The position numbers and the translations under genes were made by a program. From a virus, in the IMG/VR virus record IMGVR_UViG_3300028596_000035, positions 1-37,436 of that record: 37,436 nt of DNA. One strand, written 5' to 3'. This document shows, piece by piece, positions 213 to 37,014 of this stretch (the first letter of the stretch is position 1; each line of letters begins with the position of its first letter). The notes beneath the pieces were generated by a model. The model was given only the letters and a program-made list of their open reading frames with translations, searched no databases and was not told the origin of the DNA.

Positions 213-1025
213 CTAGAGATCTCCTCCTCGCCATATTACCTTGCCGATGATCCGGTGCTCGTTCGTATCGCTACGCAGGAAGGAGCGATCTGGATGGTCT
301 TCTTTGTTTTCGTTGTCACTGCGTAAGTACCAGCCGTCGAGAGAGGTCTTTACGAGACGCTTAACGATGGTCTTCTCACCATGTGCGAGGACGAAAATCT
401 GCCCGTCCACTGGTTCGACCTTGGATCTATCAATCAACAGCACGTCGCGATCATTGATCGTCGGCCACATGCTTTCGCCCTCGGCGTAAATGACGATCAG
501 GTGATCTGCTTTGGCGCCCTTAACCCTCAGCCATTCACGCTTGAATGCAAGCGTAGACCTGACCTCGACATGCGGGTTCTCGCTCCCGAGGCCAGCGGCC
601 GCCTTCGCGTCGTACTGCGGAATGAACGCATAACGGTCGTCAAGGGTTGCATTGGCCTCATCGCCAGCGGGGAATGGTGTATTGGCAGCAACTCCGTCAC
701 TGACGAATCTCTTGCGCGTATCTTCATTCCCCGGTGAAAGCGAAGAGCTTAATTGCTCTAGCTCTGCGGCAAGCGTTGGGCTGAATTCGGAAACTGGAAC
801 CTCAAGCATCCTGGCGAACACTGCCGCAGCTTTCAGGCTGAGAGCGGTCCTGCGATTCATGAAATGACTGACCGCACCCTGGGTCACTCCATCCCCTAGC
901 TCGGAAGCGATCTTTTCTTGGGTCAGCTTTAGGAGTGCGCGTTTCCTCTGAAAAATCTCTTTCAGGCGGTCGCTGTCTTCCAATTGCCAGTCGGCAAGCG
1001 GGAGTCTTCGGGAGTCTTTAGTCAT
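213..1025 (-). CDS. cI: CI-type phage repressor with S24 autopeptidase domain
   Basis: A 270-residue lysogeny repressor. Residues about 20-80 form a helix-turn-helix DNA-binding domain (TQEKIASELG, then TQGAVSHFMN). Residues about 135-265 are a LexA/UmuD-type S24 peptidase: an Ala-Gly cleavage site in AKAAAG (A144-G145), the catalytic serine in GESMWPTI (S185) and the general-base lysine in TIVKRLV (K222). RecA-stimulated self-cleavage after DNA damage is the established behaviour of this family. It faces away from the cro-like gene across the 1034-1102 operators. No good ribosome-binding site precedes the ATG, and a possible -10 (TACTAT) ends 6 nt upstream, so the mRNA may be leaderless, as for lambda PRM. 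Confidence 0.93.
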   Translation of the reverse strand: MTKDSRRLPLADWQLEDSDRLKEIFQRKRALLKLTQEKIASELGDGVTQGAVSHFMNRRTALSLKAAAVFARMLEVPVSEFSPTLAAELEQLSSSLSPGNEDTRKRFVSDGVAANTPFPAGDEANATLDDRYAFIPQYDAKAAAGLGSENPHVEVRSTLAFKREWLRVKGAKADHLIVIYAEGESMWPTINDRDVLLIDRSKVEPVDGQIFVLAHGEKTIVKRLVKTSLDGWYLRSDNENKEDHPDRSFLRSDTNEHRIIGKVIWRGGDL

Positions 1026-23168: not shown

Positions 23169-23924
23169 ATGCGCAAACACATCCTGACCGCCGTGCAAGC
23201 GCACGCCGCGGCTGAGTACCCACGCGAGTGCTGCGGTCTGATCCTGGCCGTAGGCCGCAAGCAGATCTATGTGCCGTGCACCAACACTGCGAGCGACCCG
23301 GGCGAAGAGTTCCGGATCGCGCCGGAGGAGTACGCTGCCGCGGAAGACCAGGGCGAAGTGATCGGCATTGTGCATTCTCACCCTGACGCTACCAGCAGGC
23401 CGTCACCGCGCGACCTGGCGATGTGCGAAGCCACAGCGCTGCCTTGGCATATCTTGTCTTGGCCGGAGGGTGACCTTCGGACTATCACCCCAAGTGGCAG
23501 CGTGCCGCTGCTTGGCCGGCCATTCGTGCACGGTGCCTGGGACTGTTGGCAGGCCTGCGCGGACTGGTACCAGCGGGAGTGGGGGCTGGAGTTCCCGGCC
23601 TATGCCCGGGAGGACGGGTGGTGGGAGCGGGCAGCCGGGCCAAGTTTGTACGAGCAAGCCTACGAGGCGGCGGGGTTCTACCAGGTCGACCGGCCGCAGC
23701 GCGGCGACATGATCGTCATGGAGGTGGGGCGCACGGCGCACCCGAACCATGCCGGGATTTACCTGGGCACTGACCCGCAACTACCGGGCGAGCAGGTCCA
23801 GGTGTTTGGCCAGGGGCCATTCCTGCTGCACCACCTGTACGGCAGGCCATCAGAAATTATCGTGTTCGGCGGGCCATGGCTCGACCGGACGCGCCTTGTG
23901 TTGCGCCATCGAGACGCGAAGTGA
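23169..23924 (+). CDS. Tail tip peptidase K-like (JAMM plus NlpC/P60)
   Basis: 251 residues from ATG at 23169 (GGAGCTGACC upstream; the frame remains open to 23067 without a good start). Domain 1 is a JAB/MPN metalloprotease with H69-S-H71-P and S79-P-R-D82. Domain 2 is NlpC/P60, with catalytic C126 in GAWDCWQ and H194 in PNHAGIYLG. This two-domain arrangement is that of lambda gpK, thought to process tail tip proteins or cut peptidoglycan on entry. Confidence 0.92.
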   Translation: MRKHILTAVQAHAAAEYPRECCGLILAVGRKQIYVPCTNTASDPGEEFRIAPEEYAAAEDQGEVIGIVHSHPDATSRPSPRDLAMCEATALPWHILSWPEGDLRTITPSGSVPLLGRPFVHGAWDCWQACADWYQREWGLEFPAYAREDGWWERAAGPSLYEQAYEAAGFYQVDRPQRGDMIVMEVGRTAHPNHAGIYLGTDPQLPGEQVQVFGQGPFLLHHLYGRPSEIIVFGGPWLDRTRLVLRHRDAK

Positions 23925-23949: not shown

Positions 23950-24384
23950 ATGCAGCGTTACATGCTGACGATTTTTGACCTGTTCACGATGAACGGGAGC
24001 GACGCGTGCAGCGCCCAGGCCGTGGTTGCGATCATAGATGGTGAGCAGGAGGTCGACCGTTTCACCATCAGCGGCAAGTGCCAAAATCCGAACGGGTACC
24101 GACGCGGCTACACCGGTAAGCCTGGCCTTACCGCGCAGTTGCTATCTGGCCCAGATGGGGCCAGTTTCGCCTGGGCCGTGGATGAAGCTGGCCCGTATCA
24201 GACTACCATCGCCTGGCGTCGGCACCTTAGCAACCCTCCTGATCGCGCACCAATCGAGGTGGATGTGCAGGATGGGCGCGCCGAGTACTTGCTCAACGGC
24301 CCATATACCTTGGGTGAAGGGGGAAAAATCGAGGTCATCAACGGCAAGCTGCTCTTCACTGGGGGCAGCTTCAAGGTCACCTGA
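23950..24384 (+). CDS. Hypothetical protein between K-like and immunity locus
   Basis: 144 residues from ATG 23950 with AGGAGAAG upstream. It is soluble, with several short beta strands (YMLTIFDLF, AVVAIIDGEQEVDRF, SFAWAVDEAGPYQ) and ends GGSFKVT. No family recognised. Lambda has gene I at this point; here the I-like gene is 2.6 kb further on because of the inserted locus. It could be a phage tail accessory protein or the first gene of the insertion. Its end overlaps the leftward gene below by 8 nt. Confidence 0.7.
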   Translation: MQRYMLTIFDLFTMNGSDACSAQAVVAIIDGEQEVDRFTISGKCQNPNGYRRGYTGKPGLTAQLLSGPDGASFAWAVDEAGPYQTTIAWRRHLSNPPDRAPIEVDVQDGRAEYLLNGPYTLGEGGKIEVINGKLLFTGGSFKVT

Positions 24385-24631
24385 GGCTGCCGAACACTCG
24401 AGCGAAGTTTCCATCTCCGAAGAAGTTGAGGTTGTCGGCAAGAATCAGCGCGAACCCAGAGCCAATGGCCTTGAGTTCATCGTAAATGGTGGCGAAGTCA
24501 GATTCGGAAAGAAAGGTAATAGCTCCGCATCCAACCGCTACTCCACGGTAGGCATGTTTCTCGGCAACGGGGATGTATTCTTCCTTCGTGGTCACAATCA
24601 CGTAAGGGAAAATCGTCTGTCCTGGGTTCAC
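24377..24631 (-). CDS. Small hypothetical protein, leftward
   Basis: 84 residues from GTG 24631, with AGGAGG 5 nt upstream, a strong sign of a real start. The protein is soluble: IFPYVIVTTKEEYIPVAE, then a central GVAVGCGAITFLSESDFATIYDELKAIGSGFA. No family recognised. It lies downstream of the mnt-like gene on the same strand, with a 181-nt gap holding an 11-bp inverted repeat, so it may be expressed in the lysogen. Confidence 0.65.
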   Translation of the reverse strand: MNPGQTIFPYVIVTTKEEYIPVAEKHAYRGVAVGCGAITFLSESDFATIYDELKAIGSGFALILADNLNFFGDGNFARVFGSLR

Positions 24632-24652
24632 ATCGACCTCCTAGGTCATCAA

Positions 24653-24691
24653 TGCCCCAGTCCATGGGCTTTCCAGCAACGGACTGGGGCA
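24653..24691. repeat. Perfect 11-bp inverted repeat
   Basis: TGCCCCAGTCC at 24653-24663 and GGACTGGGGCA at 24681-24691 with a 17-nt loop, in the gap upstream of the leftward 84-residue gene. Read leftward it lies in the probable 5' untranslated region, ending 17 nt before the ribosome-binding site. There is no T-tract on either side. It could be an operator or an RNA hairpin controlling expression. Another small hairpin (CATCC/GGATG) lies near 24750. Confidence 0.5.
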
Positions 24692-24812
24692 GTTCGTTGG
24701 AGGTGCAACGCTACTATGGTGGAATGATGGCGTGGTACTGGCTTTCCATCCATGCTGGATGCCTGGTCAGGTGTGTTGAATTGCTCGGGTACATACCTCT
24801 CCGGCAGCGAAC

Positions 24813-25193
24813 TCAACTCTTTGGTCGCTCCTTTTGGACAGGGACAGCCGTAAGTCCAAACACCTGATTTAGCTCCTTCAAAGCCTTGAATGCTCGTTTC
24901 AACGACTCATTATCTGTTTCGGCCAGTTCGGGAGCAGAGGTTCTATGCGCTTCGTCGCCAATGATGACCATTCCATCCATAGCTTGCTCTTGAGCTTCGG
25001 ACTTGAAGATACCCTGACCTTTCAGCCGCTCGCTATCACTCCAGCCCATTTCGTTTGGCTCGGAGAAGCTGCGCTCAAGCCTTGCGAGGATCTCGGCAGT
25101 GGCCGACCGCTTGTTTTCCCTTGCGGCAGCAACCACGAGATCCTTTAGTTCTTCCGGTATGCGCAGATTGAATTGGGGGTCGGTGCGGCTCAC
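24813..25193 (-). CDS. Mnt-like ribbon-helix-helix repressor
   Basis: 126 residues from GTG 25193; a longer form from GTG 25241 is possible, and neither has a clear ribosome-binding site. The N-terminus, DPQFNLRIPEELKDLV followed by NKRSATAEILARLE, is an Arc/Mnt ribbon-helix-helix, with the Gln-Asn-Arg strand that in P22 Arc contacts DNA bases. A longer C-terminal region ends in a helix (NESLKRAFKALKELNQVFGL) that may oligomerise, as in Mnt. It faces the arc-like gene across a shared operator and should hold the ant operon off in the lysogen. Confidence 0.82.
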   Translation of the reverse strand: MSRTDPQFNLRIPEELKDLVVAAARENKRSATAEILARLERSFSEPNEMGWSDSERLKGQGIFKSEAQEQAMDGMVIIGDEAHRTSAPELAETDNESLKRAFKALKELNQVFGLTAVPVQKERPKS

Positions 25194-25248
25194 GAATACC
25201 ACGCAAAGTTTGGTTGACAGGTATTCGCAAGGATGCACCACGGTGGTA

Positions 25249-25302
25249 TTGACAGCAATGCATCACGGTTATACATTCGGTAAATGTACAACGGTGATGC
25301 AT
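25249..25302. promoter_or_regulatory. Shared operator and divergent promoters of the arc/mnt/ant locus
   Basis: An imperfect 45-bp palindrome centred at 25280 (25258-25302) has outer arms ATGCATCAC/GTGATGCAT and inner arms TACATT/AATGTA; 18 of 20 arm positions checked agree. A near-consensus rightward promoter overlaps it: TTGACA (25249-25254), 17 nt, TACATT (25272-25277). A leftward -10 TATAAC reads at 25273-25268. A further palindrome ACCAC-G-GTGGT lies at about 25237-25247. This fits cooperative binding of ribbon-helix-helix dimers, as at P22 immI. Confidence 0.75.
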
Positions 25303-25314
25303 CAGGAGGGAGGC

Positions 25315-25470
25315 ATGGCCAGGAAAGATCCGCAGTTCAATCTGCGCTTACCAGAGGAGCTCAAACAGTGGGTCGAAACACAGGCGCAGAAGAACCATCG
25401 ATCTCAAACAGCAGAGTTGGTCTATCTGATTTCGGAGGAGAAAAGACGGCAAGAGCAGGCGGCAGCCTGA
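25315..25470 (+). CDS. Arc-like ribbon-helix-helix repressor
   Basis: 51 residues with AGGAGGGAGG before the ATG. DPQFNLRLPEELKQWVE, then NHRSQTAELVYLISEE, is almost a minimal Arc protein (P22 Arc is 53 residues), keeping the Gln-Asn-Arg beta strand. It shares DPQFNLR(I/L)PEELK with the divergent Mnt-like protein, so the two are related by descent. It lies 71 nt before ant and should limit ant expression, as Arc does in P22. Confidence 0.88.
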   Translation: MARKDPQFNLRLPEELKQWVETQAQKNHRSQTAELVYLISEEKRRQEQAAA

Positions 25471-25541
25471 AAACGAAGAAGCCCCAGTGCGGGAACACTG
25501 AGGCTTCGAGAAACGAGATCAACTTCGAGGAAGAAATCGTC

Positions 25542-26432
25542 ATGGCGAATAGTAGCACAGCTGTATCTAGTGTCATCCCGTTCCGTACAAGCAAGCTTTT
25601 GCTCGTTGAGCGAGACGGGCAGCCATTCGTTCCAATGAAGCCAGTGGTTGAGGGAATGGGGCTTGCTTGGCAGACCCAGCATCGCAAATTAATGGCTGGC
25701 AGGTTTGCTCCAGTTATCACCATGATGGTGACAACTGGTTTGGATGGTAAGCAGTATGAAATGGCTTGCCTTCCACTGAAAAAGCTCCCGGGCTGGCTAA
25801 TGTCGATCCACGCAAGCAAGGTCAAGCAACCTCTTCGTGAAAACGTGCTTGCGTATCAGGACGAGTGCGACGATGTGCTTTGGGCCTATTGGAACGATGG
25901 CCGTGCCGTGAATCACCGTGACTCAAATCAGTCCATGACAGTTCTTGGGCAGACCATTGGTACAGATGGCTTTCACATGCTCGGCGCCATCGTAAAAGGA
26001 AAGGTCTCCGGATTACCCGCGCCGGTCCAACGGCGCGCCATCTCGAAGATTTGGTCTCAGGTTCATGCTGCGTTCGGTGTGCGCTCCGCTGCTGACATTC
26101 CGGCGGACAATTTGGACTCAGCCCGAAATTTCGTCGCAGCCTACACCATTGAAGGGGAGCTGCTGCCGAAGCGTGAACAGGCCCAGATCATCGGCGAGCC
26201 GTTCAAGCGCTACCTCGTCGCCTTCAACCACAAGGGCGAACAGAGTGTTGAAGAGGTTCCGGATAATGCCTACGTGCTCTCGCAACATGATCTGATCACT
26301 GGGATGGTGGCTACACCCGGAGATATCCCAGTTTCCCATATGGACATGTTCAGATTCATGGAAGCCGGTCTGGCTAACCTCAAAGCGAGGGCCATGTTCC
26401 TTACTCGGAGGGCTGGTGCGGCGGGCGGCTGA
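25542..26432 (+). CDS. ant: Antirepressor (P22 Ant-like)
   Basis: 296 residues; GAGGAAG precedes the ATG. The N-terminal domain (VIPFRTSKLLLVERDGQPFVPMKPVVEGMGLAW, landmark near 11-45, with LPLKKLPGWLMSI at about 80) matches the P22 antirepressor N-terminal family (P22_AR_N); a distinct C-terminal domain follows. Ant proteins bind CI-type repressors and block their DNA binding, which induces prophages. The likely target is the repressor at 213-1025 or those of related phages. A terminator follows 44 nt later. Confidence 0.88.
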   Translation: MANSSTAVSSVIPFRTSKLLLVERDGQPFVPMKPVVEGMGLAWQTQHRKLMAGRFAPVITMMVTTGLDGKQYEMACLPLKKLPGWLMSIHASKVKQPLRENVLAYQDECDDVLWAYWNDGRAVNHRDSNQSMTVLGQTIGTDGFHMLGAIVKGKVSGLPAPVQRRAISKIWSQVHAAFGVRSAADIPADNLDSARNFVAAYTIEGELLPKREQAQIIGEPFKRYLVAFNHKGEQSVEEVPDNAYVLSQHDLITGMVATPGDIPVSHMDMFRFMEAGLANLKARAMFLTRRAGAAGG

Positions 26433-26476: not shown

Positions 26477-26498
26477 AACCCCGCCTATGCGGGGTTTT
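26477..26498 (+). terminator. Terminator after ant
   Basis: 8-bp stem AACCCCGC/GCGGGGTT with loop CTAT and a short T-run. It closes the arc-ant operon and separates it from the lipoprotein gene, and it blocks late transcription unless antiterminated. Confidence 0.75.
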
Positions 26499-26550: not shown

Positions 26551-26898
26551 ATGCGAATTCTGATTGGGATGCTGGCGGTGGCGTTGCTGGCGGGGTGCAC
26601 AACCGCCTCTGACTTGAAGTCCAGCGATCCAGTCTTTGTGGGTAGCACGAATAAAACGAGCAAGCAGTATGCCCTGTGCGTTTACCCCAAGTGGCAAGAT
26701 CTGAACCTGGGTTCGACTATGTCGGAAACTGAGAACGGCTACCGTCTGGTGATGGGGAGTTCGGCAACCGGGCAAACCGACGAACTGCTCGAAGTAACAA
26801 CGACCGCCGACGGGGCTAGGGTTACCCATTTCCAGAGGATTGCTTGGCAGCAACTTGGCCGCGGCACTGTATCTGAGGCGGTAAAGACCTGCCTGTAA
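26551..26898 (+). CDS. Small lipoprotein in the tail module
   Basis: 115 residues with AAGGAGGG before ATG 26551. A signal peptide ends in lipobox LLAGC (Cys16), so the mature protein is lipid-anchored. Two more cysteines (in ALCVYP and KTCL) could form a disulfide. It stands alone between two terminators, typical of a moron expressed in lysogens. Phage lipoproteins here, such as Cor of T1/N15-type phages, can block receptors against superinfection; for this protein that is only a possibility. Confidence 0.78.
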   Translation: MRILIGMLAVALLAGCTTASDLKSSDPVFVGSTNKTSKQYALCVYPKWQDLNLGSTMSETENGYRLVMGSSATGQTDELLEVTTTADGARVTHFQRIAWQQLGRGTVSEAVKTCL

Positions 26899-26914: not shown

Positions 26915-26939
26915 AAGCCGCCATCAAGGCGGCTTTTTT
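26915..26939 (+). terminator. Terminator after the lipoprotein gene
   Basis: 8-bp stem AAGCCGCC/GGCGGCTT, 5-nt loop, then a run of T. The next gene's ribosome-binding site (CTGGAGAAA) follows directly. Confidence 0.8.
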
Positions 26940-26955: not shown

Positions 26956-27564
26956 ATGTCGGCTCTGGCCATTTTTTATCAGCCTCTTACTACTATCCGT
27001 CTGTTCGGCCAATTGCGGCAGTTTGGCAAGAGCTATCGATTGGCTGTCAGCTCGCCAGCCGAGGCAATCAAAGCCCTGTGCGTACAGATTCCTGGCTTCG
27101 AGCGCTTCCTTTCAAATGCAAAGTCTCGTGGTCTTGAGTTTGCGGTATTCCGAGGGAAAAGGAACATAGGAGAAGGTGAGCTCACCTATCAGGGGGCAGG
27201 GGATATACGGATCGCCCCTGTCGTTGTTGGTAGCAAGCGTGCCGGCCTACTCCAGACAGTTATAGGTGTAGCCATGATCGCTGCATCCTTTTTCGTTCCA
27301 GGCAGCACGCCTGCCGCCCTTGCAGCAGCAAACGGCTTAATGGCAGGGGGAATTGCGCTGGCAGCTGGCGGCGTCATCCAGATGCTCAGCCCCCAAGCCA
27401 AGGGCCTGAAGACCAGCGCCGCCCCTGAGAACACTCCGGGCTATGCCTTCGGTAGTGCCAAGAACACCACTGCCAGCGGCAACCCCGTACCGCTTTGCCT
27501 GGGCCGCCGACGTTGGGGCGGCGCGATCATCAGCGCTGCGATCTACGCCGAAGACCAGATGTAG
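26956..27564 (+). CDS. Tail assembly protein I-like
   Basis: 202 residues from ATG 26956 (CTGGAGAAAAGC upstream). TTIRLFGQLRQFGKSYRLAV and IKALCVQIPGF are typical of lambda gpI. Hydrophobic, Gly/Ala-rich stretches (about 98-145) are followed by a C-terminal NPVPLCLGRRRWGG. It works with K and J to initiate the tail tip and is not kept in the mature virion in lambda. Confidence 0.88.
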   Translation: MSALAIFYQPLTTIRLFGQLRQFGKSYRLAVSSPAEAIKALCVQIPGFERFLSNAKSRGLEFAVFRGKRNIGEGELTYQGAGDIRIAPVVVGSKRAGLLQTVIGVAMIAASFFVPGSTPAALAAANGLMAGGIALAAGGVIQMLSPQAKGLKTSAAPENTPGYAFGSAKNTTASGNPVPLCLGRRRWGGAIISAAIYAEDQM

Positions 27565-36998: not shown

Positions 36999-37014
36999 CT
37001 GTTTGTATATACAG
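36999..37014. promoter_or_regulatory. LexA (SOS) box
   Basis: CTGTTTGTATATACAG: CTG, ten bases, CAG, with the central TATATA run of the consensus. It lies 18 nt upstream of the GTG at 36981. LexA should repress the leftward gene until DNA damage, the same signal that triggers CI cleavage. Confidence 0.85.

Follow-up and report, generated by a model that had tools for sequence, protein, structure and literature searches.

The virus record analysed here, which we call the window (37.4 kb, taken over its whole length), probably carries an immI-type 'ant moron' among its tail genes, that is, an independently transcribed cassette in the late (tail) operon built on two ribbon-helix-helix (RHH) proteins (R1 and R2), a sar-type antisense RNA, and the antirepressor Ant. 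We give this reading a probability of about 0.7. Divergent Mnt-like and Arc-like RHH genes lie upstream of ant, Ant has a P22_AR_N domain, and the antisense RNA is recognizable by sequence, structure, and covariation. These features are shared with immI of phage P22 (mnt, arc, ant, sar), where the antisense RNA likewise lies between arc and ant. The first-pass annotation had called the locus immI-like, and its gene families and their order are indeed those of P22.

Genes of the cassette and their setting in the tail operon

The gap between tail genes K and I carries a leftward RHH gene, a rightward RHH gene, ant, and other cargo. It is bounded on the left by a K-like gene (23169–23924, plus strand; Prok-JAB plus NlpC/P60) and on the right by an I-like gene (26956–27564, plus strand; Lambda_tail_I, 6e-5; PHROG 32 tail assembly, 2e-71). 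R1 is a Mnt-like RHH repressor of 126 aa (24813–25193, minus strand; Pfam Arc PF03869, 7e-15), for which a start at 25241 was set aside and the GTG at 25193 is the likely start. R2 is an Arc-like RHH protein of 51 aa (25315–25470, plus strand; PF03869, 1.6e-10), and ant encodes a P22-type antirepressor of 296 aa (25542–26432, plus strand; P22_AR_N PF10547, 7e-43; PHROG 524 anti-repressor Ant, 1e-60). All three reading frames are intact. The Pfam and PHROG matches thus bear out the earlier description of divergent Mnt-like and Arc-like genes with a P22 Ant-like gene between K-like and I-like genes. In a sequence search of solved structures, R1 was nearest to Arc (1u9p, 1arq) and R2 was near both Arc and Mnt. 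An AlphaFold2 model of Ant, based on a 14-row alignment, had a mean pLDDT of 61 and a pTM of 0.36 and was rejected as a basis for a fold search. PADLOC gave no defence-system match among the ORFs tested.

The C-terminal tail of R1 is longer than that of its P22 counterpart and unrelated to it. Residues 67–123 (window 24816–25193) resemble helicase motifs II–III of restriction enzymes (VIIGDEAHRT...FGLTAVP), with a match to PF04851 at E 1.4e-4, just under the cut-off. This helicase-like tail was not found in other R1 homologues, whose tails differ, and the tails seem to be swapped as modules among homologues.

The remaining cargo of the gap comprises a 144-aa ORF (23950–24384, plus strand; PHROG 38193, no assigned function), a small gene of 84 aa (24377–24631, minus strand) with relatives in loci L111 and L130, and a lipoprotein gene (26551–26898, plus strand; PHROG 914), a Cor-like candidate that adjoins tail I in many relatives. 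The order K, lipoprotein, I and the Cor-like reading of the lipoprotein are known from phiAH14a (PMC4936722). A likely terminator, CCCCGCCTATGCGGGG followed by TTTT, was found by eye 3' of ant (26479–26498, plus strand), and another terminator lies 3' of the lipoprotein gene (26915–26935, plus strand). The G+C content of the gap is 54.6%, compared with 62.3% for the structural genes on its left side. A conserved 37-base core, TACTGGCATTCCATCCACGCTGGATGCCTGGACAGG, is present in the window (within 24652–24867) and in 44 loci, once per locus and always on the plus strand; it sits in K-I, I-J, and pre-tape-measure cargo, and one possible reading is RYYG...YWHSIHAGCLDR in a small ORF that matches no family.

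We compared this gap with that of 67 relatives that were fetched through tail I and carry both K and I. Its length ranged from 432 to 5333 bp (median 1811), K and I adjoined in none, and even the shortest gap contained a lipoprotein gene. The claim that the module splits a K-I pair is therefore unsupported in this phage group, and the idea of an insertion at a K-I junction that would otherwise be empty is rejected, because the gap was always occupied by cargo. A window-type ant was present in the K-I gap of one of the 67 (L125), and also in two tail-I loci (L116 and L161) whose fetched stretch has no K. Most close relatives thus lack the module, and judging from these genomes it is accessory, movable cargo of the K-I gap.

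Placement was then counted on loci fetched by Ant plus L125, the counts being records of which several are near-identical. The module lies between K and I in 21 loci, among them the records of P. aeruginosa PA7 and P. lundensis DSM 6252; in 17 loci it precedes the tape-measure gene, and in 11 it sits between L and K. A contig end cuts off 5 loci, and 59 were given no placement. In L011 and L044, its neighbours are a large virion (ejection-type) protein on one side and a tail spike or fibre on the other, as in P22. The RHH-RHH-ant order and a near-constant spacing recur across relatives, including loci with P22 Arc and Mnt operators. The switch appears to occur in many DNA-binding specificities and at several sites among phage structural genes.

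A variable cassette in the late operon has a precedent, since P22-like podophages were described as carrying an 'ant moron' in their late operon, next to the tailspike gene (PMC2629481). Like those morons, the window module is a late-operon cassette that has a predicted promoter of its own and varies among close relatives, and it shares with P22 immI a location among the structural genes of the late operon. It differs in its address, which is K-I in a siphophage tail operon and, in relatives, also upstream of the tape-measure gene or between L and K, rather than beside the tailspike. The K-I address given by the first-pass annotation is real, but the P22 late-operon precedent had been missed (PMC2629481). 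A close counterpart, the cassette g19-g21 (Arc, Arc, antirepressor) of Pseudomonas phage UFJF_PfDIW6, shares 69% DNA identity with the window and has the same QFNLR strand in R1 and the same operator type, whereas it is located between the tail spike and integrase. Its description goes no further than membership of a lysogeny module (PMC8951688).

A single operator type between the RHH genes

The 121 bases that separate the R1 and R2 starts contain a part of the switch overlooked in the first-pass annotation, namely three near-identical 19-bp imperfect palindromes. These predicted operators, ATGCACCACGGTGGTATTG (25233–25251), ATGCATCACGGTTATACAT (25258–25276), and ATGTACAACGGTGATGCAT (25284–25302), all given on the plus strand, have the consensus ATGYAYMAC-S-GTKRTRCAT and a centre spacing of 25 and 26 bp. 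No further copy was found elsewhere in the window at up to three mismatches. A shuffle control of the pattern is circular, as the pattern was built from the sites themselves; an independent three-site similarity score was 41, versus a maximum of 36 in 1000 dinucleotide shuffles. The second copy lies within a promoter-like site that points rightward to R2 and ant (TTGACA, 17, TACATT; 25249–25277, plus strand), although the promoter scan yielded 2 such sites versus 1.3 in shuffles, which is about equal.

To see which RHH protein sets the operator type, we compared 75 divergent RHH pairs from 71 loci of relatives, many of them near-identical. An R1 with the strand QFNLR (window, L002, L016, L032, L035, L116) was accompanied by operators of the ATGCATCAC type, while the R2 strand under this one combination was QFNLR, QINMR, or QVIFR. 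An R1 with QVNFR (L012, L013, L026, L022, L025, L038) was accompanied by operators of the AAAGCAC type, and R1 with QFKLR by two further types (L008 and L010; L021 and L168). Over 20 pairs, with kinship ignored, operator similarity was correlated with the identity of the R1 strand (Mantel r 0.56, 0 of 5000 permutations; partial r 0.55) but not with that of R2 (r 0.19, p 0.10; partial r given R1 0.08). The array is of a single type and this type tracks R1, so R1 is the likely reader of the array, as far as sequence comparison can tell; binding of R2 is possible but not implied.

The first-pass annotation had noted DPQFNLR(I/L)PEELK in R1 and R2, which is present in both translations, and had proposed from it that both repressors may bind the same operator, unlike in P22. 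The single-type array does set the window apart from P22, in which Arc and Mnt have separate operators; the two control loci of P22 type, L064 and L068, show separate, differing sites, which we take to be the P22 Arc and Mnt operators. In the narrow sense of P22's own immI, then, the window differs in having one operator three times. The shared motif, however, is no proof of shared binding: in L012, L013, and L026, R2 begins with SRKDPQFNLR, near-identical to that of the window, yet the operator is of the quite different AAAGCAC type.

An alternative is that R2 lacks a dedicated operator and works by mixed dimers or by competition with R1, which would make the module a switch with one operator instead of one with two repressors. 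The tracking of R1 rather than R2, the three R2 strands over one operator type, and the occurrence of a QFNLR R2 with two types are consistent with this, whereas the strand residues of R1 and R2 in the window are identical, so that direct binding by both is possible, and P22 Arc binds an operator of its own. We regard such a division of labour as a tentative possibility.

A predicted sar-type antisense RNA over the ant leader

A second part overlooked earlier is a sar-type antisense RNA (25474–25541, minus strand) that spans the predicted ribosome-binding site of ant (GAGGAA at about 25527–25532, found by eye). The Rfam sar model (RF00262) matched 25541–25474 on the expected minus strand over its full length with 25.6 bits (E 0.0092), short of its gathering score of 43; the model exceeded its cut-off in L044 and L064. 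The RNA ends in a terminator hairpin of 13 pairs (25478–25507, minus strand) followed by T-rich sequence. In an alignment made leftward from the ant start, the hairpin was kept across 25 Pseudomonas-type loci, with both-sided changes in 8 pairs. G-U occurred in 41 of 325 cells, where the opposite strand would give A-C mismatches, indicating a minus-strand RNA.

Our own covariance model, made exclusively from the Pseudomonas-type set, gave the window RNA 74 bits and matched the P22-type sar at the corresponding place (L064, 9e-8; L068, 1.5e-7) as well as distant loci L044, L050, L051, L055, and L072. In the ant-less loci L003, L090, L095, L098, and L105, it found nothing better than E 0.3. Away from ant, the sar model also matched the plus strand of the tail I-J gap in L020, L042, and L043, though more weakly (30.5 bits). 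RNAalifold on a MAFFT alignment gave no consensus for a 5' hairpin, and the claim is confined to the terminator hairpin. A candidate promoter, Psar (ATGACA, 16, TACTAT, with a TG extension; 25549–25576, minus strand), lies inside ant; because the match overlaps ant codons, its conservation is inseparable from protein constraint. Sequence, structure, and covariation thus point to a sar-type RNA that is presumably expressed.

The predicted circuit and the probable targets of Ant

Put together, these parts suggest the following circuit, in which each regulatory and binding step is a prediction. In a lysogen, R1 would occupy the three copies of one 19-bp operator overlapping the rightward promoter and keep R2 and ant off. 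Entry of the DNA into an R1-free cell, or loss of R1, would allow synthesis of the R2-ant mRNA. R2 would then damp the operon, either by weaker binding to those operators or by mixing with R1. The antisense RNA of about 68 nt, transcribed leftward from inside ant and stopping at the hairpin between R2 and ant, would pair with the ant leader and block its translation, also on late read-through transcripts. Ant made in the meantime would inactivate CI-type repressors, probably acting in trans and on a broad range of them, such as those of resident or co-resident prophages.

The first-pass annotation had instead seen Ant as a dedicated second input to induction of its own phage, binding the CI-type primary immunity repressor at 213–1025 (minus strand; HTH_3 plus Peptidase_S24). 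In P22, Ant does inactivate the phage's own C2 repressor (PMC3121763; PMC11016777), and the window CI is an S24-type repressor. Identities of Ant and CI over 20 phages were weakly correlated (r 0.36), which close relatives could cause and which may be driven by P. aeruginosa prophages in this sample that are related to one another. On the other hand, the nearest Ant proteins (L005, 83%; L006 and L007, 71%) come from phages whose CI is 19–25% identical to that of the window, whereas the nearest CI among 40 records searched (L129, 66%) belongs to a phage with a K-I gap of 1405 bp that has no ant. Ant is thus not tuned to the window CI by shared descent. No LexA box was found within the module, and LexA control of ant was rejected; the sole exact LexA-type box in the window, CTGTTTGTATATACAG (36999–37014), precedes a leftward ORF close to the end of the window. 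P22 Ant has several repressors as targets and was reported to be dispensable for P22 induction, its need in P22 itself being unclear (PMC3121763). The proposal of two inputs to induction is therefore unsupported, and we consider it rather unlikely; a role in trans on other repressors is the better guess here and fits the comparison better. Cross-prophage action is known for the Gifsy antirepressors GfoA and GftA, which are likewise encoded outside the immunity region (PMC3121763). Those are small LexA-controlled genes, whereas the window module has no such box before its antirepressor gene and possesses RHH genes and a sar-type RNA.

That the module is a passenger or decaying cargo without a present immunity role is highly improbable, for although the K-I interval is a high-turnover cargo site and the distribution of ant is patchy, the three genes are intact, compensatory changes keep the sar hairpin in relatives, and the module is found again at several late-operon sites.

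The immI-type ant moron is itself known from P22-like phages; here it has a late-operon address for which we found no description in the literature, and a one-operator design. The finding widens the range of the P22 immI circuit and its antisense RNA to a broad set of lambda-like Pseudomonas-type prophages, and offers a natural series of repressors with matching operators in which the Mnt-like and Arc-like roles are separable. The purpose of Ant, an old question, also becomes testable through it; that Ant is not co-inherited with CI speaks for a role against the repressors of other phages. More speculatively, the Pseudomonas-type ant morons might form a diversifying second immunity system, in which each phage has one operator type set by the Mnt-like protein, the Arc-like protein works through mixed dimers or competition instead of through an operator of its own, and sar silences ant on late read-through. 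If this were true, an incoming phage could fire Ant at resident prophages by virtue of its differing specificity.
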